Shown here one piece after another: positions 3,420 through 22,728 of a DNA stretch of 28,804 bases. How positions within the stretch are numbered: the stretch's first letter is position 1; each line of letters begins with the position of its first letter. The translations under genes and the position numbers were made by a program. The DNA lies in IMG/VR virus record IMGVR_UViG_3300010430_006903, positions 1-28,804 of that record. One strand, written 5' to 3'. The notes under the pieces are model-generated. The model saw nothing but the letters and a program-made list of their open reading frames with translations. It searched no databases and had not been told where the DNA came from. The DNA comes from a virus.

Positions 3420-5455
3420 TAGTCTAAATCCTCAAATTGTCTATTTCTTTGTCTTCTATCATGTAACTCCATAGCTTTAACAACATCAATCTCAGATTTA
3501 GGCTCTTGAATTGTTATGTTATAAGTTGGAGTATTGTTAATCACTTTTGATTCATTACTTTTTTTATTAGTATTTACTACTTGATTAGAAGTAGAAAAGT
3601 CTTGGTTATATACATCTTTTTGAATATTCTCAATACTTTTTTTATTCTCTTTTGTGCTAACACCTGTAACAACTGTATTATTACTTTGACTAACAGGAGC
3701 AACTGTTGCAACTGCAGGAGCTTCTTTTTTATCATCTTTAAAACCAAAGAATGATTTAACACTACTTACTCCAGAGCTAAACTTATCACTAACAGTTGAT
3801 GTTATTCCAGATAGATTAGAAGTAATAGCTCCAACAGTATTAGTAATCCATTTAAACTTACTTTCTATCCATGTAAAGAATGATTCAAAAGGTGATTTAA
3901 TAAAAGATACTGCACCTTGAGTAAATGATGCAATACCATTCCAAGTTGTTGTAAACTTATTTGAAACACCATCCCATAACTCAGTAAAAAATGAACTTAT
4001 TGGTTCCCAATTACTATAAATCAAATATGCAGCACCAGCTATTGCAGTTACTGCTAAACCAATTGGATTTGTTAAAAATAAAGCTGATACTGTTTTCATT
4101 GCAGTTCCTAAGAACATTACAGCACCTGTTACTAAACCAAATCCAGAACTAACAATAGGTAAAGCCATACCAATAGCTCCAACTACTACTCCAATCGTAC
4201 CAAATCCAGTTAATGCTACACCAATTACACCTACTGTTAATCCAATTGTTGAAGCTAACTCTTCATTCTCATCTATCCATGATCCAACAGACTTAACAAC
4301 TCCACCAATTTGAGTTGAAATAAATCCAGCTGCAGGAGCAAAGAAACCACCAATCATAGTTGTTACATTATTGATTTGTTGGTTTAAAAGTTCCCACTCC
4401 TTACCTTTATTTGTAGCCTTTGCCATCTCTTTTGTTTTAGCTGTTCCATCTTGTAATGATAGATTCATACTATTTATATTAGATGTTAAAGTATCAGTTT
4501 CATTATAAAGCAACTTAACAAGGGCAACAGCCTCTTCTGTTCCAAATGCTTTTTTAAGTTCAGCACTCTCTATTGCATCAATTGACTCACCATACTTATC
4601 TTTTATTTTTGTGATAATATCTGGCATTGATAAAAGCTGATTATTTGCATCAGTAAACTGCAAATCTAACTTATCACCAGCTGCACTAACAGAACCTAAA
4701 AAGGCTCTATATTTTGTTGCAGCTTCACTACCACTCATTGTTGATTGTAATTGACCTAAGATAGATAACTGTTCTGCAAAGTTTATTCCAGCAGAAGTAG
4801 CACTTGCTCCTAAATTTGAAAGAGCAGCAGACATTTGAGAACCATCAGTTTTAAAAGCTTGAACAGAGTTTGCAATACCAGCTGAGAAATACTCACCAAA
4901 CTTGATATCTTTCTCTTCCTCTGATAATTTATTCCAACCTTTTATAGTAGTAGCTCCAAATCCTTCAAACTGTTTTCTATAAATTCCATAACCTGTTGCA
5001 AACAAATCTGTCATTTGACCTGTTGATGATTTTGTAGCAGCTGCTGTCATTGCAGATATTTTTGTAAACTCACCAACTGCTGTATTACTTAAACTAGAAA
5101 TACCAGACTTGATATCATATGAAGCCTGTACAAAAGCAGGTGCAGTTGTACCAGCATATTCATTTGTAAACTCTCTAGCACTTTTAGTAATAGACTTAAT
5201 ACCACTATCATCTATTCCTAAAGATGCTATCTCACCTTGAGCTTTTGCTAATTCTTGATAGTCATTGTATGCAGATTTTAACGGAGCAGTTATTGCAGTT
5301 CCTATAGCTAAAGATGCAGTTCCTAACTTTGTAATATTTGCAGATACAGCTGATACTTTTGAATCAAATCCTCCAAGTTTATCTGTTGCATTTCCAAGAA
5401 CTGGAGTTAAATGATCAACAGCAGAAAGAACAATTCCAAGTGTTAATAAAGACAT
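3419..5455 (-). CDS. T: Tail tape measure protein, P2 gpT/TP901 type
   Basis: This 678-residue protein is the longest in the late block. Residues about 55-340 form the TP901-type tape measure core, followed by a hydrophobic, glycine/alanine-rich membrane-active region (about 400-480). A long Ser/Thr/Lys-rich, probably helical C-terminus ends ELHDRRQRNRQFEDLD. By the usual rule of about 1.5 angstrom per residue it predicts a tail near 100 nm, shorter than P2's (P2 gpT is about 815 residues). Its start follows the E' stop by 5 bases, with GGAG upstream. Position after E/E' is standard. Confidence 0.92.
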   Translation of the reverse strand: MSLLTLGIVLSAVDHLTPVLGNATDKLGGFDSKVSAVSANITKLGTASLAIGTAITAPLKSAYNDYQELAKAQGEIASLGIDDSGIKSITKSAREFTNEYAGTTAPAFVQASYDIKSGISSLSNTAVGEFTKISAMTAAATKSSTGQMTDLFATGYGIYRKQFEGFGATTIKGWNKLSEEEKDIKFGEYFSAGIANSVQAFKTDGSQMSAALSNLGASATSAGINFAEQLSILGQLQSTMSGSEAATKYRAFLGSVSAAGDKLDLQFTDANNQLLSMPDIITKIKDKYGESIDAIESAELKKAFGTEEAVALVKLLYNETDTLTSNINSMNLSLQDGTAKTKEMAKATNKGKEWELLNQQINNVTTMIGGFFAPAAGFISTQIGGVVKSVGSWIDENEELASTIGLTVGVIGVALTGFGTIGVVVGAIGMALPIVSSGFGLVTGAVMFLGTAMKTVSALFLTNPIGLAVTAIAGAAYLIYSNWEPISSFFTELWDGVSNKFTTTWNGIASFTQGAVSFIKSPFESFFTWIESKFKWITNTVGAITSNLSGITSTVSDKFSSGVSSVKSFFGFKDDKKEAPAVATVAPVSQSNNTVVTGVSTKENKKSIENIQKDVYNQDFSTSNQVVNTNKKSNESKVINNTPTYNITIQEPKSEIDVVKAMELHDRRQRNRQFEDLD

Positions 5456-15806: not shown

Positions 15807-16020
15807 TCTGTCTCCTTTTTTGGATTTGGTAACTGATTAAAGTTTCGATGCAGCCATTTTAATAGCTTTCAAAATGAAAAACACTCCATATACATACATC
15901 TGGAATGATTAATATTTTTTTTTATATTAATATGGCTGGTTATTGATACAACAACATGAAAAGCCCATAAGTAGGCTATTTTGTTTATGTTGTAATAGTT
16001 GTAAGAAAAAAAGGGTTTAA
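15807..16020. promoter_or_regulatory. Divergent late regulatory region between scaffold and portal genes
   Basis: This 214-base gap separates the leftward late operon from the rightward portal/terminase pair, so it should hold promoters in both directions. It contains a very AT-rich stretch (about 15909-15932), a nested hairpin (ACAACAT 15951-15957 with ATGTTGT 15987-15993, inner AGCC/GGCT at 15962-15965 and 15974-15977) and the hexamer GTTGTA twice at 15989-15994 and 15998-16003. The inverse TACAAC lies at 15947-15952. The right part is shared with the leader of the GemA operon. Short frames here (20 codons or fewer) lack a Shine-Dalgarno sequence. Confidence 0.6.
15989..16020 (+). promoter_or_regulatory. 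Shared leader element, copy 1 (portal operon)
   Basis: GTTGTA-ATA-GTTGTA-AGAAA, then AAAAGG, ends exactly at the portal ATG (16021). The second GTTGTA lies 17 bases before the start codon. The same element with the same 17-base distance precedes the GemA gene on the other strand. It combines a likely activator-binding direct repeat (period 9) with the ribosome binding site. Confidence 0.55.
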
Positions 16021-17079
16021 ATGAGTGATTTGATTTTAAAAGGTGCAAAAGAGTCTAAGCAAACAGTTGGTAAAGATAGTCAAAATTCAAATGGAACTAT
16101 TGATCCACATATAAACTTTGATTTACTATTGAAGTTTTATTACTTCAATGTATATCATCAAAGAAGTATTAGATTAAAAGCAGCACTACTATCTCAATAT
16201 ACTAATAGTGACTTAGATAAGTTTATTCCAGATAATGAGATTGCAAACTATTTCTTATATGCACTTACTATGGATATGGAAATATATGGAAATGCTTTTT
16301 TAGAACAAGCTGGAACTAAAAGTGATTTTTACTTATATCATGTCTTAGGCTTTCAAGGTAGAGTTAATAAGAATAAAGAGATATATCAAATTCCAGAGAA
16401 TAATGAAGACCCAGTTAAGTTAGATGGTTTTCATTTTAAATATCACTCCCCATCATCTAAATATTATGGAGAACCAGATTATCTTACAACACTAGAACAA
16501 ATCAACACTACAAAACAAGCAGACCAATATAACAGCTCATTTTTTAAAAATGGAGCTAGACCAGGCTTTGGAATTGTGTTTGAAAACAGCTCACCAAATC
16601 AAGAGCAAGTAAACTCTTTTAAACAGTTCTTTGGTTCTAACTTCAAAGGCTACAGTAATGCTCATAAGAGTTTAGTTTTACATACTGGTAAAACATCAGA
16701 TGGAGCAAACCCAGCAAAAGTAAGACTTGAGAAATTAAGTGGTGTAGAAGATATGAGTTTTGAGAAGCTTAAAAATGTAACTAGAGATGAGATTATTGCA
16801 GCTCATGGAGTACCACCAAGATTAGTAGGTGTTATGAGTGCTGGTGGATTAGGTGGAGGAAGAGAGCTAATAGATCAACTTCATGCATTTAATGAAGTAA
16901 CTATCAAACCAAAAACCAAAGTTATCAAAGATTCATTTGCTCACATTGGAATAAATCATGAACCAGAGCTAATAGATGTAACAAATTTCAAAGATGATAG
17001 TGACTTGATTTCAAACTTAGTTGATAGAGATATTTTAACAAATATTGAAGCCAAAGAGATTTTAGGATTCAACAAGTAA
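16021..17079 (+). CDS. Q: Portal protein, P2 gpQ/PBSX family
   Basis: The 352-residue protein matches the gpQ-type portal in length (P2: 344) and motifs. Diagnostic parts are YGNAFLEQAG (about 96-105), FHFKYHSPSSKYYGEPDYL (about 137-155), PGFGIVFENSSP (about 181) and AAHGVPPRLVGVMSAGGLG (about 260-278). It forms the dodecameric DNA gate at one head vertex and binds the terminase. It is the first gene of the only rightward operon of the phage; P2 likewise transcribes Q in the opposite direction from P. Here, unlike P2, P follows Q on the same strand. Confidence 0.95.
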   Translation: MSDLILKGAKESKQTVGKDSQNSNGTIDPHINFDLLLKFYYFNVYHQRSIRLKAALLSQYTNSDLDKFIPDNEIANYFLYALTMDMEIYGNAFLEQAGTKSDFYLYHVLGFQGRVNKNKEIYQIPENNEDPVKLDGFHFKYHSPSSKYYGEPDYLTTLEQINTTKQADQYNSSFFKNGARPGFGIVFENSSPNQEQVNSFKQFFGSNFKGYSNAHKSLVLHTGKTSDGANPAKVRLEKLSGVEDMSFEKLKNVTRDEIIAAHGVPPRLVGVMSAGGLGGGRELIDQLHAFNEVTIKPKTKVIKDSFAHIGINHEPELIDVTNFKDDSDLISNLVDRDILTNIEAKEILGFNK

Positions 17080-17173
17080 GTAAATGTATGTTTAAAAGTG
17101 TTTAAAACCCGTTTAAAAACCAAAAAAACACTTTAGTCGAGGATTTATATTAAAAAAGGTAAAAAATCAAAAT
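17080..17173 (+). repeat. Three helically phased GTTTAAAA repeats between portal and terminase
   Basis: GTTTAAAA occurs at 17090-17097, 17100-17107 and 17111-17118, with spacings of 10 and 11 bases. The three copies would face the same side of the DNA helix. The 94-base gap otherwise shows only AT-rich DNA up to the terminase start. It could be an operator, a terminase recognition site or chance in AT-rich DNA. Confidence 0.4.
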
Positions 17174-18754
17174 ATGGCGTATTCTAAAGAAGATAAAGAA
17201 AAAGCATTAAATCTTATCAAAGCTGGTGTTCCTATTACAGAAGTATCACGTGATTTAAATATCAATAGAGGAACACTTAACAACTGGATCAAAAAGTCTA
17301 AAGATAAGCAAACAAATGAAAGTTCTATTGAGAATATCAAGAAGCAAATTGAGACTGTCTCAAAAAGAGCACCTACAGAAGCTAACTCAAGAAAACTTGC
17401 AATGCTTACAAAATCCCTTGAGAGATTAGAAAAGCAATCTAAGAAGATTGATAAGAAGGCAAAGCCTAAGATTGTATATAGTGAAGATGTAAAAGTATTC
17501 AAAGAGAAGATATTAGACCCAGAGTATGGACTATATGAATATCAAAGAAAGTTCATGCTTGATGAGAGTAGATTTAGAGTATGGCTAAAATCAAGACAAA
17601 TTGGTGCAACTTATGGATGTTCTGGAGAGTGTTTAATAGATGCTATGTCTGGAATGGATCAACTTATTCTTTCTGCATCTGAGACTCAAGCTTTAAAGTG
17701 GTATTCAGAGATTCAGAAACACGCAGAGAAACTAGATATTCCTCTTAGTGGTTCATCAAGTGAGATAAAAGTTCCAAGTGGAGCTACTATTTATATCTTT
17801 GCAAACAACTTTAGAACTATTCAAGGGTTCTCTGGTTCTGTTTGGATGGATGAGTTTGCATGGTATCTAAACCCTAAAAGAATATGGGAAGCATTTATCC
17901 CATCTATTACATCAGTTAAAGCTGGAGAGACACAAGCTAGAATCACTATTCTATCAACTCCATTTGAGCAAGATAGTTTATTCCATAAGCTTTGTGTTGA
18001 TACGACTAAATACTATATGTTTTCAAGGCATCACACTTCTATCTATGATGCAGTTAAAGATGGTCTTGATGTTGATATTCAAGTATTAAGAGATTTATTT
18101 GATGAAGATTCATGGGCTACGATGTATGAGTGTCAATTTGTGGACGATGATAGTTCATTCTTTCCTATCTCACTTATCAAATCTTGTGTTAAAGATTATA
18201 TGTACTACACACCAAATATTCAAAATGTCTTATGGTCTGGATATGATGTGGGTAGAACTAAAGATGTATCTGTATTATCTGCTATTGATAAAGTAGAGGG
18301 AAGATATGCATTAGCAATCCAAGATGTATATAAAAAAGCTACATTTGAAGCACAAAAGACAATAATCAAGGACCACCTAAATGTATATCAAAAGTCTAAT
18401 ATGAGAATAGATAGAACGGGTATTGGTATGGATTTAGCAGAGGGTATGGAGAGTAAGTATCCGAGTAGAGTTGAAGGGATTCATTTTACAGCTAGTTCTA
18501 AAGAGATGATGGTTCTAAACCTTAAAAAGATGTTTGAGGATAAGTTAATCACAATTCCAAATGACCCAACACTTATAGCAGATATTCATGCTATTAAAAG
18601 AAAGGCTGGTCAAAAAAGAATGTTGTATGATGCAGATAGAAATGCTTATGGTCACGCAGATAGATTCTGGTCTTTAGCATTAGCTGCTAAGAAGTTAGAC
18701 TTCTTAGACAGAGGAGAGAGTGGAGAAAGCAAAGGTGGTGCTATTATTTTATAG
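17174..18754 (+). CDS. P: Terminase large subunit, P2 gpP family
   Basis: The 526-residue protein has the P2-type layout. A helix-turn-helix lies at residues 1-45 (LNINRGTLNNWIKKS). A coiled linker follows, then the ATPase with the Walker A-like KSRQIGAT (139-146) and Walker B VWMDE (223-227). The C-terminal RNase H-like nuclease starts near SGYDVGRTKD. The N-terminal helix-turn-helix may supply DNA recognition in the absence of a recognisable small subunit. As the phage replicates by transposition, it should package by headful from integrated copies, which contrasts with the cos cutting of P2 gpP. It ends convergent with, and overlapping by 6 bases, the last gene of the GemA operon. Confidence 0.94.
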   Translation: MAYSKEDKEKALNLIKAGVPITEVSRDLNINRGTLNNWIKKSKDKQTNESSIENIKKQIETVSKRAPTEANSRKLAMLTKSLERLEKQSKKIDKKAKPKIVYSEDVKVFKEKILDPEYGLYEYQRKFMLDESRFRVWLKSRQIGATYGCSGECLIDAMSGMDQLILSASETQALKWYSEIQKHAEKLDIPLSGSSSEIKVPSGATIYIFANNFRTIQGFSGSVWMDEFAWYLNPKRIWEAFIPSITSVKAGETQARITILSTPFEQDSLFHKLCVDTTKYYMFSRHHTSIYDAVKDGLDVDIQVLRDLFDEDSWATMYECQFVDDDSSFFPISLIKSCVKDYMYYTPNIQNVLWSGYDVGRTKDVSVLSAIDKVEGRYALAIQDVYKKATFEAQKTIIKDHLNVYQKSNMRIDRTGIGMDLAEGMESKYPSRVEGIHFTASSKEMMVLNLKKMFEDKLITIPNDPTLIADIHAIKRKAGQKRMLYDADRNAYGHADRFWSLALAAKKLDFLDRGESGESKGGAIIL

Positions 18755-19003
18755 CTGTTCTATCACCTTATTAAGTGCTTGAATTAATATAATCTTTTTT
18801 TCATTATGTAAAACAATAGGAGTTTCTCCATTAGCATATGATGGTAAACTTCTTATTGTTTCAAACTCACCTTTTAAAAGTAGAACAAAAGGTGTTTCAT
18901 TAATTGAAGCTAATGCTTCAACAACTTGCTCCAATTGAACATCAATAATCATTCCATTTTCTTCTAATTGTTCTTTAAATGTTTTAAGTGTTTGCTTTGG
19001 CAT
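18749..19003 (-). CDS. Hypothetical protein
   Basis: I do not recognise the 84-residue sequence. It has helical ends and a central hydrophobic stretch (PFVLLLKGEF), with no signal peptide. An AAGGAA lies 7 bases before the ATG. It is the last gene of the GemA-led operon and its stop overlaps the 3' end of the convergent terminase gene. Confidence 0.6.
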   Translation of the reverse strand: MPKQTLKTFKEQLEENGMIIDVQLEQVVEALASINETPFVLLLKGEFETIRSLPSYANGETPIVLHNEKKIILIQALNKVIEQL

Positions 19004-19021
19004 TAAAATATTCCTTATTAG

Positions 19022-19303
19022 CTATTTTACTAAAAATTTTTCTTCAATTAATCTTTTAATTCTTTGATATTCACCCATTGCATCTGTAAAATCAAAACTA
19101 TATGCATAAAAAGAATCCGATCGTACTGTTATTAGTTCTATTTTCTTATCAAAAATAGATATATCTAATACATTATTTAAATTTATAAACCTTGAAAATG
19201 TTACCTCAGAATAATCTAGCTCAACATCAATTTTTTCTTTTATTTTTTTATTTTCTTTTATTTCGATAAACACTATTTTCCTTTTTTTGATTTTATTATA
19301 CAT
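19022..19303 (-). CDS. Hypothetical protein, lysine-rich
   Basis: I do not recognise the 93-residue sequence. It is basic at the N-terminus and strand-rich in the middle (ELITVRSDSFYAYSFDF), with a C-terminal helix. The ribosome binding site is weak (AAAGAA). DNA is even more AT-rich than the neighbours. It lies between two other small genes of the same operon, with short gaps. Confidence 0.5.
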   Translation of the reverse strand: MYNKIKKRKIVFIEIKENKKIKEKIDVELDYSEVTFSRFINLNNVLDISIFDKKIELITVRSDSFYAYSFDFTDAMGEYQRIKRLIEEKFLVK

Positions 19304-19317
19304 AATTATTTCTTTTA

Positions 19318-19719
19318 TTAAATAATCATTATTTTTTTTAACGACTTTTTTAAACCTTTAACAAAGTCATCTTTTATTTCTTCTGCTGTGTCATTTAAGG
19401 CTCTATTAAGTCCACCACTTGACATATATTTTTTAAGTCCATCTTCTAAGTAAGGCTGTGGTTTTATACCACCCTTTTTAATTCGTCCTGTAGTTTTACC
19501 CCTTGCTTTTGTTCCTGTTCCTTGATAAACATAAGGAGCATAAGGAGCTAATTTTGAGTTTCCTATAGATATCTCTAAATCATCTATATTATCTGTAAAT
19601 ACTTGAATATCTCGCTTTAAATTTCCAGTTCTATACGGAGCTAAGTCCTTACCTTCATTTGCTATTTCTGAACCTATTCTATAAAGTAGGTTCTTAGCTG
19701 CTTTCATATCCTCACTCAT
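19318..19719 (-). CDS. Virion morphogenesis protein, HK97 gp10/Mu G-like
   Basis: The family is suggested by LAPYRTGNLKRDIQV and by APYAPYVYQGTGTKARGK, a pattern of tail-completion and neck proteins in the gp10/Mu G/P2 S group. I choose the ATG at 19719 (133 residues, MSEDMKAAK), because CAGGAGAA lies 9 bases upstream. The longer frame from 19752 would overlap the preceding gene by 41 bases without a good site. With no R and S genes between the lysis-like genes and V, this gene probably supplies that tail-completion role. Confidence 0.78.
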   Translation of the reverse strand: MSEDMKAAKNLLYRIGSEIANEGKDLAPYRTGNLKRDIQVFTDNIDDLEISIGNSKLAPYAPYVYQGTGTKARGKTTGRIKKGGIKPQPYLEDGLKKYMSSGGLNRALNDTAEEIKDDFVKGLKKSLKKIMII

Positions 19720-20035
19720 CTTTAAAATTCTCCTGTATATATTCAAGAGCATTAATCAATGTACCGTTAAAAGTCTCTTTTTCTTCCCATTCTTGACCTT
19801 TAATATTAAACACTTTGAACTCAGCATTTATATTCATAAAGTCATGTTCCTTACATTTCTCTATCAAATCACTATCAATATTAAATGGGTTTTGAATCCA
19901 TTGAACTTTATCATTGATAATCTCTAACTCAGCTAGTTCATCTATTTTAAAATGTTCTACTTTATGATTTACAGGAACACTCCCTTGATTTTCGATAGCA
20001 AACCCATTTCCGATTGAGATTGAGTATTTTTCCAT
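19712..20035 (-). CDS. Hypothetical protein
   Basis: I do not recognise the 107-residue acidic sequence. It has a strand-rich N-terminus (KYSISIGNGFAIENQGSVPV) and a helical C-terminus (LINALEYIQENF). AAAGGAAAT precedes the ATG. It overlaps the 3' end of the Mu F-type gene by 67 bases and the morphogenesis gene by 8. Its location within the head/neck genes suggests a minor virion role, or, given the extra C-terminal domain of the Mu F protein, possibly a partner of that domain. Confidence 0.6.
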   Translation of the reverse strand: MEKYSISIGNGFAIENQGSVPVNHKVEHFKIDELAELEIINDKVQWIQNPFNIDSDLIEKCKEHDFMNINAEFKVFNIKGQEWEEKETFNGTLINALEYIQENFKDE

Positions 20036-21207
20036 TTTATAATTTCCTTTTTATCTGTATTAGCATTATCTTTAAAATAGTTCTTTCTTGGTTCTTTGAA
20101 GATAGTATATAAATAATCTGCATCAAAAACCATAAAATAACCGTTAGCCGATTTGGCAACTGTTCTATGTGCATAATCTTTATGAGGTGCTATCTCACTA
20201 ATACTATTTAATGCACTTATGATATCTTTATTAGGTATATTTCTCTTTGAGCTTGTAGCAGAGTGATTTAAAGATGCAAAGTTTGTTCTTCTTTGAACTC
20301 CCGTTTTATCAATATGAGTTATTAGATCACTCTTTTTCTTTGATGTAAAGTTTACTTTCTTTCCATCTATTTCCTCACTACTAAGCCATACTGGAACAAC
20401 CTCAGTTCTACATCTAAAGTGATAAGGTGGTAGTCCAAAGTTTTTAGGAAGCTTTCCATATACTGGATTACTACTCCATGCAGCTGCTGTTTTTTTCTCA
20501 CTCATATTTTTAGCAGCTACTACTTGATCTACTTGATTTGATAAGTGAGAGGCCTCTATAACTTTGTTATGCATAGACCTACATATATCACTTGTTTTTT
20601 TATCTATTCTAGCTTTAACTTGGAAATGTTTAACATCATGCTTTAAAGCTTGGTTCACTCTTGAGATGTTTTGAGATTGATTTATTATATGATCTGAAAC
20701 ACCCTCAAAGTATTTCACATCAGCATTGATAACACCTTGAAACTCTTCTTTTAACCTTGAGCTTATTTGCTCTCTTGTGATGTCACCTTTAAAAGCACTC
20801 TCAATAGTCTTCTTGAGCTTTTCTTGAGTTTTACTTGAATACTCAGTACCAACCCAATAAAAGTTGTTTCTCATTGATTCTATAGCTTTTAAATCTATCT
20901 TATTAAATTCAAACTTTGTAGTGGGTGAGTTTACTTGAGAGAGCTTCTTATAAATATCATCTAGCTCTTTAGTATCAAAAGATATATTTAGGTCTTTTAA
21001 CTTACTTCCTACTATTGCAAGAAGTGCTTCATTGTCTGTACTATTATAGTTCCTATTGATATAAACTATCATATCAGATAAAAACTCCTCTAGTTGCTCT
21101 TTAGCATTAATAGATTGAGTCTTTACAAACTCATCTATTATTTCATCTATTTTCTTTTTGTCTTTGCTCTTGGCTTTCAAAAGGGCTTTCAAAAGTTTCT
21201 TTTGCAT
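19969..21207 (-). CDS. Minor head protein, Mu gpF-like, with extra C-terminal domain
   Basis: With the ATG at 21207 (GGAG 5 bases before the start codon is close but good) the protein has 412 residues. Residues about 130-275 form the Mu F-like head morphogenesis domain, with KARIDKKTSDICRSMHNKVI (198-217) and LPPYHFRCRTEVVPVW (259-274). These carry the conserved Cys and Arg positions. After about 300 comes a distinct domain with NHSATSS, HKDYAHRTVAKSANGYFMV (342-360) and YLYTIFKEPRKNYF. Such C-terminal additions to Mu F proteins are often PBECR-type (barnase/EndoU/colicin-like) RNases injected with the DNA. That identity is a suggestion from layout and a few His/Arg/Tyr residues. A longer start at 21228 lies deeper inside the preceding gene. 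Confidence 0.85.
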   Translation of the reverse strand: MQKKLLKALLKAKSKDKKKIDEIIDEFVKTQSINAKEQLEEFLSDMIVYINRNYNSTDNEALLAIVGSKLKDLNISFDTKELDDIYKKLSQVNSPTTKFEFNKIDLKAIESMRNNFYWVGTEYSSKTQEKLKKTIESAFKGDITREQISSRLKEEFQGVINADVKYFEGVSDHIINQSQNISRVNQALKHDVKHFQVKARIDKKTSDICRSMHNKVIEASHLSNQVDQVVAAKNMSEKKTAAAWSSNPVYGKLPKNFGLPPYHFRCRTEVVPVWLSSEEIDGKKVNFTSKKKSDLITHIDKTGVQRRTNFASLNHSATSSKRNIPNKDIISALNSISEIAPHKDYAHRTVAKSANGYFMVFDADYLYTIFKEPRKNYFKDNANTDKKEIIKWKNTQSQSEMGLLSKIKGVFL

Positions 21208-21352
21208 AATCTCTCCAATAATCATCAAACTTTATGGCTTCAATCGTAGAAAATGAATAGCCACATTCTAAACAAGTTCTAAACCTCTCATTTTGTGTTC
21301 CAGTTGTAGTTCCTACAACCTTTGTTTTACCACAACACTTAGGACACCACAT
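21143..21352 (-). CDS. Ogr/Delta-like zinc-finger protein, putative late activator
   Basis: The 69-residue protein begins MWCPKCCGKTKVVGTTTG and contains RFRTCLECGYSFSTIEAI, so C3, C6 and C27, C30 can bind one zinc. The spacing and the C--CG--F-T-E ending match the Ogr/Delta zinc fingers that turn on P2/P4 late genes, and also the NrdR zinc ribbon. Mu Com, which regulates mom translation, has a different pattern. GGAGGG lies shortly before the ATG. It overlaps the Mu F-type gene by 65 bases. It may activate the promoters carrying GTTGTA repeats; this link is inferred. Confidence 0.75.
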   Translation of the reverse strand: MWCPKCCGKTKVVGTTTGTQNERFRTCLECGYSFSTIEAIKFDDYWRDYAKETFESPFESQEQRQKENR

Positions 21353-21360
21353 AATCCCTC

Positions 21361-21744
21361 CTATTGCATTTTTTCAATAGCAATAATTACCTTTGTAGCC
21401 TCAGCTTTTGTAAGAACTTCTATACTACTTCTTTGGGTGATTCTTCCAATAAATGCATTCATAGCACTTGTATTTTTCTTCTTAGCTTTATCTTCCCAAG
21501 TAGTTTTAATCTTCTGTTTTTGTGCTGATGTGATAGGTTCTTCCAAAGGTATATCACTTACTTTTCTAAGGCAAAAGTTAAGCATTTGATTTAACTGATC
21601 AATACTCATATGTTTTGTACTAACACAGTTAAATCTACTTTTCATAAAATCTCGCCTTGACTCATCATCTGGAAATACATTACTTTTATTGATTTGTATC
21701 TTTTGTATTAAGCTATTTTTATAAGCTAATTGTTTATTAGTCAT
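21361..21744 (-). CDS. gemA: GemA-like regulatory protein, Mu gp16 family
   Basis: The 127-residue protein matches the Mu gp16/GemA family (DUF1018). It has DESRRDFMKSRFNCVSTKHM (28-47), DQLNQMLNFCL and a C-terminal LTKAEATKVIIAIEKM. In Mu this protein modulates host gene expression and DNA supercoiling late in growth. It is the first gene of the minus-strand operon that ends at 18749. The repeat-bearing leader described at 21745-21826 precedes it. Confidence 0.87.
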   Translation of the reverse strand: MTNKQLAYKNSLIQKIQINKSNVFPDDESRRDFMKSRFNCVSTKHMSIDQLNQMLNFCLRKVSDIPLEEPITSAQKQKIKTTWEDKAKKKNTSAMNAFIGRITQRSSIEVLTKAEATKVIIAIEKMQ

Positions 21745-21776
21745 GTTGTACCTTTATTTCTTACAACTACTACAAC
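21745..21776 (-). promoter_or_regulatory. Shared leader element, copy 2 (GemA operon)
   Basis: Read on the minus strand: GTTGTA (21776-21771), GTA, GTTGTA (21767-21762), AGAAATAAAGG, then the GemA ATG. The second repeat ends 17 bases before the start codon, as in the portal leader. A further inverse copy (TACAAC on the minus strand) lies directly before the ATG at 21745-21750. Confidence 0.55.
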
Positions 21777-21826
21777 AACTACAATAACCCGTAAAATAGG
21801 CTTATTGTTATTGTTGTAGTTGTTGT
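21763..21826. repeat. 25-bp near-perfect inverted repeat upstream of GemA
   Basis: The left arm 21763-21787 and right arm 21802-21826 match at 22 of 25 positions around a 14-base loop that starts CCC and ends GGC. Both arms are made of ACAAC/ACTAC units, that is of the GTTGTA/TACAAC hexamer family. The right arm reaches the stop codon of the RepA-like gene, so the structure could both terminate the early transcript and serve as binding site for a regulator of the next operon. Confidence 0.65.
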
Positions 21827-22728
21827 TATATAATTTTGTAAATCTTTCTATTACCTTGTTCTTCTTTCATATAGAATCTATTCTCAAACTTATCAAGCAT
21901 TGCTTTTGTAGTCTTATCTGTGCTTGAGCTTCCAATAGCTGAAAGTAGTTTTCCTTGAAGCATTCCATCTGGATTTTGTTTTAAAATCTTTTTGATTGAT
22001 TCAACAAAATCTTTCTCTCTTGGATTCATACTTGCTTCTTGTAGTTCTATTGGATAAAGTTCTAAAGTGTCAGTATCAACTCTAAAGGCACAATCTTTAA
22101 CTCCACCTCTCTCTTTTTTAGTTTCTAATCCAAGATGAAGCTTACCTTCTGGACTTGGAAGCTTTGTAAGCTTAAACATACAATCTAAAGAGTTTTTGAT
22201 ATTGTTACTTCCCTCGTAGTTCTTACCATCTTTATTTGCATGGTGTACTAAGATAATAGTTGCTCCAGCTTCTCTGATATTCATAAGCATATTCATTAAC
22301 TCCATAGCTTTCTTATCATCTTTGATATAGTCTAAGTTTCTAATAGAATCAATAATAAAAACCATATCATCATATGCATGAGCTACTGCATTATCACTAA
22401 GGCCTTTTATAAGTTCAATTGGAGCAACTTTTAATTTACTTCTTTGAATGTAATTAAGATGTGAATATTTATCAATCAATAAATTATCAACATTTCTCTC
22501 TTTCAAAGTTACAATAGGATTATCAAAGTCAAGATAGTAAAGTTCTTTACATACTGCATTACTACAAAGATATGATGCAACTCCATAACTTAGCCATGTT
22601 TTACCATTCCCACCATCTGCATAAAACATAGTAATCATCTTCTTTGGGATAAAATCATCTATTAAAAACTCTACATCCACATGAAGTTCATTACTATTTA
22701 ATGCCATGTCTTTTAATACATCAATCAT
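21826..22728 (-). CDS. RepA-like hexameric RecA-fold ATPase
   Basis: The 300-residue protein has a Walker A GGNGKT (39-44), a likely catalytic glutamate in LKERN (E77), Walker B FIID (124-127) and VHHANKDGKNYEGSNNIKNS (161-180). These form the plasmid/phage RepA helicase pattern (AAA_25/KaiC-like). The last about 70 residues look like a winged helix (LKQNPDGMLQGKLLSAIGSS). It could unwind DNA or remodel the transpososome at replication. Its start overlaps the stop of the preceding gene by 4 bases. It is the final gene of the early block. Confidence 0.85.
   Translation of the reverse strand: MIDVLKDMALNSNELHVDVEFLIDDFIPKKMITMFYADGGNGKTWLSYGVASYLCSNAVCKELYYLDFDNPIVTLKERNVDNLLIDKYSHLNYIQRSKLKVAPIELIKGLSDNAVAHAYDDMVFIIDSIRNLDYIKDDKKAMELMNMLMNIREAGATIILVHHANKDGKNYEGSNNIKNSLDCMFKLTKLPSPEGKLHLGLETKKERGGVKDCAFRVDTDTLELYPIELQEASMNPREKDFVESIKKILKQNPDGMLQGKLLSAIGSSSTDKTTKAMLDKFENRFYMKEEQGNRKIYKII

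Follow-up and report, generated by a model that had tools for sequence, protein, structure and literature searches.

In phage-inducible islands the origin follows the initiator gene directly on its 3' side, with a melting region between two sets of iterons, and it drives plasmid replication (PMC6092414). The island beside phoQ in E. coli CFT073, which from its position is probably the one tested in that study, carries TCTACC iterons with a 9-bp spacing, arranged in inverted sets directly 3' of a primase-family gene. The DNA analysed here, an IMG/VR virus record of 28.8 kb (hereafter the window), contains the MuA and MuB transposition genes, gemA, and P2-like portal, terminase and head genes. 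Its gemA and portal leaders each hold an array of short repeats, in which the unit is six conserved bases plus a variable linker of three, with as many as three units in each of two inverted sets.

Judged from sequence, the closest known anatomy is that of the SaPI and Gram-negative PICI rep-ori. Common to both are the six conserved bases, the 9-bp period, the two inverted sets, the location directly 3' of the gene for the presumed binding protein, and an iteron sequence that differs between elements. Unlike a rep-ori, the arrays are found in transposable phages and in several dispersed copies, the portal copy of the window being remote from the presumed binder gene. The protein encoded by that gene is a RecA-fold ATPase without a primase domain, not a primase-Rep initiator, and the core between the arms in the window is not AT-rich; because of these last two differences, the arrays are described here as resembling PICI rep-ori anatomically and are not classed as members.

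Partial parallels exist with other systems. The alpha protein of phage P4, an initiator-helicase, has iterons at more than one place (ori and crr), with several kb between them; it resembles the present case in having multiple iteron sites for one protein, but its ATPase fold is unrelated and P4 replicates as a plasmid. The hexameric helicases of the IncQ plasmid RepA type belong to the same Pfam family (AAA_25) and have the same fold core as the ATPase described here, which differs by an extra C-terminal winged helix; IncQ RepA loads through a separate iteron-binding protein. The P2 Ogr and P4 delta systems share with the window P2-like head genes, a small zinc-ribbon protein and a dyad upstream of portal. 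Unlike P2 Ogr and P4 delta sites, the arrays do not track the zinc-ribbon gene, and the dyad that might do so is CACTC...GAGTG, not GTTGTA. The central strong gyrase site of Mu is, like the arrays, a cis element inside a transposable phage; by their estimated positions in the phages where this is measurable, the arrays are not central.

Two inverted arrays in the window

The gemA gene is on the minus strand (21361..21744; PF06252 GemA, E 6.7e-11), and its array has 3+3 units of 6 bp with a 9-bp period, inverted around an 18-bp core. The gene-proximal arm (21762..21785, minus strand) reads ATTGTA-GTT-GTTGTA-GTA-GTTGTA, while the distal arm (21804..21827, plus strand) reads ATTGTT-ATT-GTTGTA-GTT-GTTGTT and overlaps the stop codon of the ATPase gene. 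Between the arms, the core (21786..21803; AACCCGTAAAATAGGCTT on the plus strand) contains G or C at 7 of its 18 bases, against a G+C content of 31% across the window. Its orientation is flipped relative to that in two relatives, L005 and L010.

The array before the portal gene (16021..17079, plus strand; PHROG 12 / 68 portal) has one clear unit on the left and two on the right. The left unit, TACAAC on the plus strand and GTTGTA on the minus strand (15947..15952), is the same hexamer in the opposite arm; the right arm (15989..16003, plus strand) is made of two exact units, GTTGTA-ATA-GTTGTA. A degenerate third right unit (15980-15985) overlaps the core, which is an inverted repeat, AAAAGCC...GGCTATTTT (15957..15983), and has similar counterparts in other phages. 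The embedding of both copies in larger inverted repeats of the GTTGTA hexamer, reported in the initial annotation, is thus borne out. In the TGAAAC-class arrays of L024, L048, L050, L023 and L164, the cores have AAAGCCC...GGGCTTT inverted repeats in common with the portal core of the window, which suggests that these repeats are a third conserved element beside the units. A -10 promoter box in the array core was also considered, and no consistent hexamer was seen. Spacers of 6-7, 17-18 and 28 bp are suggestive of helical phasing, yet 0 and 11 bp also occur, and no claim is made.

The annotated common string GTTGTA-RTA-GTTGTA-AGAAA-W-AAAGG is indeed present at both leaders and occurs exactly twice. 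Perfect matches to GTTGTA-N3-GTTGTA are confined to two places in the window, 15989-16003 (plus strand) and 21762-21776 (minus strand); when up to two mismatches are allowed the count rises to 19, where 3.35 would be expected, and no shuffle came to 19. By itself GTTGTA is common and barely enriched (23 copies for 15 expected); it is the pairing at 9-bp spacing that is uncommon in the window. The distance from the second repeat to the ATG is, as had been noted, exactly 17 bases for both portal and gemA. In the relatives L005, L010 and L015 it is about 11-17 bases, and since it is not kept, the equality looks coincidental and is given no further meaning.

The ATPase gene and the repeat unit across relatives

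Upstream of gemA, the ATPase gene (21826..22728, minus strand) encodes an AAA_25 / PHROG 6357 protein, the predicted binder of the arrays. The PHROG 6357 profile matches the whole protein (E 9.5e-91), and the Walker A lysine, Lys43, is invariant. An AlphaFold model (mean pLDDT 94) has a RecA/KaiC-like core and a C-terminal winged helix formed by residues 236-300; its fold matches in the PDB are RecA, KaiC and RadA. A PDB sequence search with the protein gave no match, and no primase domain was found in it by profile and fold comparison. The family is present in 49 of 298 sampled Campylobacterota genomes. Twelve gene copies with identical scores were seen in one draft assembly, that of Methylophaga thiooxydans DMS010 (G004, L076-L087), due either to many insertions of one transposable phage or to duplication at contig ends.

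Relatives were gathered by terminase (49), with further ones via the ATPase, and come from Campylobacterota and Gammaproteobacteria. A search of related phages for GTTGTA pairs of 9-bp period had been proposed, and arrays do recur in transposable phages: nearly all array-carrying relatives with enough sequence have MuA, MuB or another transposable-phage marker. Whatever gene lies downstream, the array on the gemA side either starts at the ATPase stop codon or overlaps it. A 9-bp-array score of at least 6 was obtained at 26 of 64 ATPase 3' ends (41%); of 1587 control ends, taken from the other genes of those same loci, about 1% scored as high. Arrays with the TACAAC unit are present in about 40 loci, and 15 permutations of the hexamer gave 0-1; a unit-free scan returned 19 arrays with two arms, and 17 of these lie at the ATPase/gemA junction, with none in three Markov controls.

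The presence of the ATPase gene predicts arrays. TACAAC arrays were found in 34 of 62 loci with the gene and in 0 of 24 without it (p 7e-7, an exact value weakened by contig ends and by the relatedness of the loci); some ATPase genes have no detected array. Related phages are non-independent data points in these counts. The zinc-ribbon gene, which follows gemA (21143..21352, minus strand; NrdR N-terminal-like in Pfam) and was an earlier candidate regulator, adjoins gemA in almost every relative with P2-type head genes for which the gemA region is available. It does not predict arrays: the 12 loci with a zinc ribbon but without the ATPase have no array, and arrays are present in 22 loci without a detected zinc ribbon.

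Arrays lie before the portal gene in the window and in L005, L010, L011 and L015; sibling phages have no portal array. Elsewhere they precede gemA or a gene of 97-101 amino acids, the terminase gene (L064), a gene of 85 amino acids (L066/L069/L098) or a MuB-like gene (L161). They are also found within the MuA coding sequence (L161, 9093-9145; L052, 470-519), between convergent genes (L050), and at ATPase 3' ends with no late gene nearby. The two MuA-internal arrays occupy a similar N-terminal position in separate loci. In gammaproteobacterial phages the array comes after the ATPase gene, where the late region, on the lysis side, begins. Several phages hold two or three arrays, many of them in leaders just before the ribosome-binding site, the spacers are only 0-7 bp in several phages, and the larger arm can point towards the gene or away from it.

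Arrays of one phage have the same unit, and units differ between phages, which argues for a common trans-acting binder at both sites. To this extent the proposal of one regulator for both leaders stands; its extension to all morphogenesis genes does not, given the arrays inside MuA, before the MuB-like gene and between convergent genes, and the siblings without a portal array. L161 has CACCAC arrays at three places and L050 has TGAAAC arrays at three places, none of the latter adjoining the L050 ATPase gene. The TGAAAC unit is common to L020, L024 and L048 as well, and TAAAAC- and GCAAAAC-like variants occur in L019, L023 and L164. A direct comparison is provided by L007 and L008: their zinc-ribbon proteins are identical and their GemA proteins differ at two N-terminal residues only, whereas their ATPases are different and so are their units, GTATTA and GTTGTA.

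A change of recognition helix in the winged-helix domain also goes with a change of unit. DKTAR-type helices go with TACAAC (25/40 against 0/10) and DRxGK-type helices with TGAAAC (3/10 against 0/40), in tests that are not independent since the helix classes are clades; a DKLAR helix occurs with a TACCAC unit in two genomes, and for some variants the unit is known from one genome only. A one-residue code, asparagine with TAATAC, was broken by L131; a looser link of asparagine with a YGC linker was retained, as were the two helix classes. In L160 (G214), adjacent arrays of differing units, of GCATCA type and then TACCAC type, lie between the ATPase and the gemA region (3841-4061), possibly a specificity switch caught in progress. 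Possible degenerate TTTAAC arrays with an AAAGYC...GGGCTT core were seen in Campylobacter phage CAM-P21 (L053, 8554-8670) and in L132, adjoining a divergent ATPase with a DNFSR helix.

A separate dyad upstream of portal

Upstream of the portal array, at 15881..15935 on the plus strand, a conserved dyad ACACTCCATATA...GGAATG is followed by a T-tract and a -10-like TATATTAATATGG. The dyad motif CACTCYATATA...GAGTG is present in the portal leaders of 20 of 40 relatives, against 0.0075 expected per leader, and occurs both with and without an array. It is 77-120 bases from the portal ATG in phages that lack the array, and 134-139 bases from it in phages that have one. Because the dyad lies farther from the ATG in array-bearing phages and is kept in those that lack the array, the portal array appears to be an insertion into the leader, below a promoter already in place.

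The dyad is probably the portal promoter or operator, and a likelier late promoter or operator than the array. As the array sits inside the leader, below the existing promoter, most of the earlier regulatory inference belongs to the dyad instead. The zinc-ribbon protein, which we take to resemble P2 Ogr, is a candidate late activator and dyad binder. A search with one short query gave no Mor-like match, either in the window or among the relatives found by terminase.

Predicted role of the arrays

The co-occurrence of arrays and ATPase gene, the exchange between L007 and L008, and the co-variation of unit and protein even at sites remote from the gene all point to the ATPase as the binder. It is highly probable that the phage's own ATPase and its arrays form a cognate pair, and direct binding of the one to the other is what we infer from these patterns. 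Whether the arrays serve as loading or origin-like sites is evenly balanced. The account as a whole, in which they are cognate iteron arrays of a RecA-fold ATPase with loading or an origin-like function as the most likely role, is one that we favour by a little.

The C-terminal winged helix would read the unit, TACAAC in the case of DKTAR-type recognition helices, and a RecA-fold ring or filament would assemble on the array. The assembled ATPase would then be loaded on the phage DNA at this place, as at the iteron origin of a phage-inducible island, and a transcriptional effect on gemA and portal may accompany loading. Several observations run counter to an origin role: the window core is not AT-rich, there are multiple arrays per phage, many arrays lie before ribosome-binding sites, and all carriers examined are transposable phages. 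Mu replicates by transposition and, by analogy, transposable phages need no iteron origin; an origin is therefore unexpected in carriers that, like Mu, would replicate in this way.

A bolder and rather doubtful possibility is that transposable phages of two phyla carry a second replicon of the iteron type, made up of a self-loading RecA-fold helicase and dispersed arrays, the winged helix co-evolving with these 9-bp iterons. If true, there would be origin-based replication beside or within replicative transposition; we found no description of iterons in Mu-like phages in the open-licence literature. The cognate-pair reading itself provides a widespread, uncharacterised phage ATPase family with predicted DNA targets, and its readable recognition code makes binding, specificity swaps and function directly testable. 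Either this type of origin extends to transposable phages, whose arrays have an island-like anatomy, or the site design has a further use in them.

The main rival to a loading or origin-like role, in our view unlikely, is that the ATPase binds the arrays as transcriptional operators, acting as a roadblock or switch at the junction of early and middle/late operons, gemA and portal included. Most arrays do lie just upstream of gene starts (gemA, portal, the L064 terminase gene and the 85-amino-acid gene), and the late-region position in gammaproteobacterial phages also fits an operator. However, the arrays inside MuA and between convergent genes, and the indifference of the larger arm to the direction of the gene, are not expected of one, and the siblings that keep the portal dyad without the array place the array inside a transcribed leader.

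In Mu, pairing of the ends depends on a central site (PMC10052514). A protein that bridges dispersed arrays for end synapsis or segregation, like the Mu central gyrase site, would agree with this precedent and with the dispersed sites, one to three in each transposable phage and independent of orientation, but the Methylophaga array, by its contig positions, lies roughly one quarter into the phage and not centrally; we hold such a genome-organising role to be improbable.

The inverted repeats might instead form a leader hairpin in the RNA, as a terminator, attenuator or RNase site. Array cores have somewhat more stable predicted folds than shuffles (mean z -1.7), and linkers are complementary between the arms more often than in shuffles (p 0.0015), as a hairpin would have it; against this, the unit is constant while the linkers vary, one arm is sometimes a single unit, and the units change with the recognition helix of the winged-helix protein. 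The flips of core and arms, together with the arrays in coding or convergent regions, further disfavour a strict leader-RNA element, making a function in RNA very improbable.

In the first proposal, the repeats would be bound by the zinc-ribbon protein or by GemA, with every morphogenesis operon turned on in consequence. The two genes do adjoin each other in this head family, and the zinc-ribbon protein is taken to resemble Ogr, but we find this reading scarcely credible; it was rejected because of the different units of L007 and L008 and the co-occurrence of arrays with the ATPase and not with the zinc ribbon.
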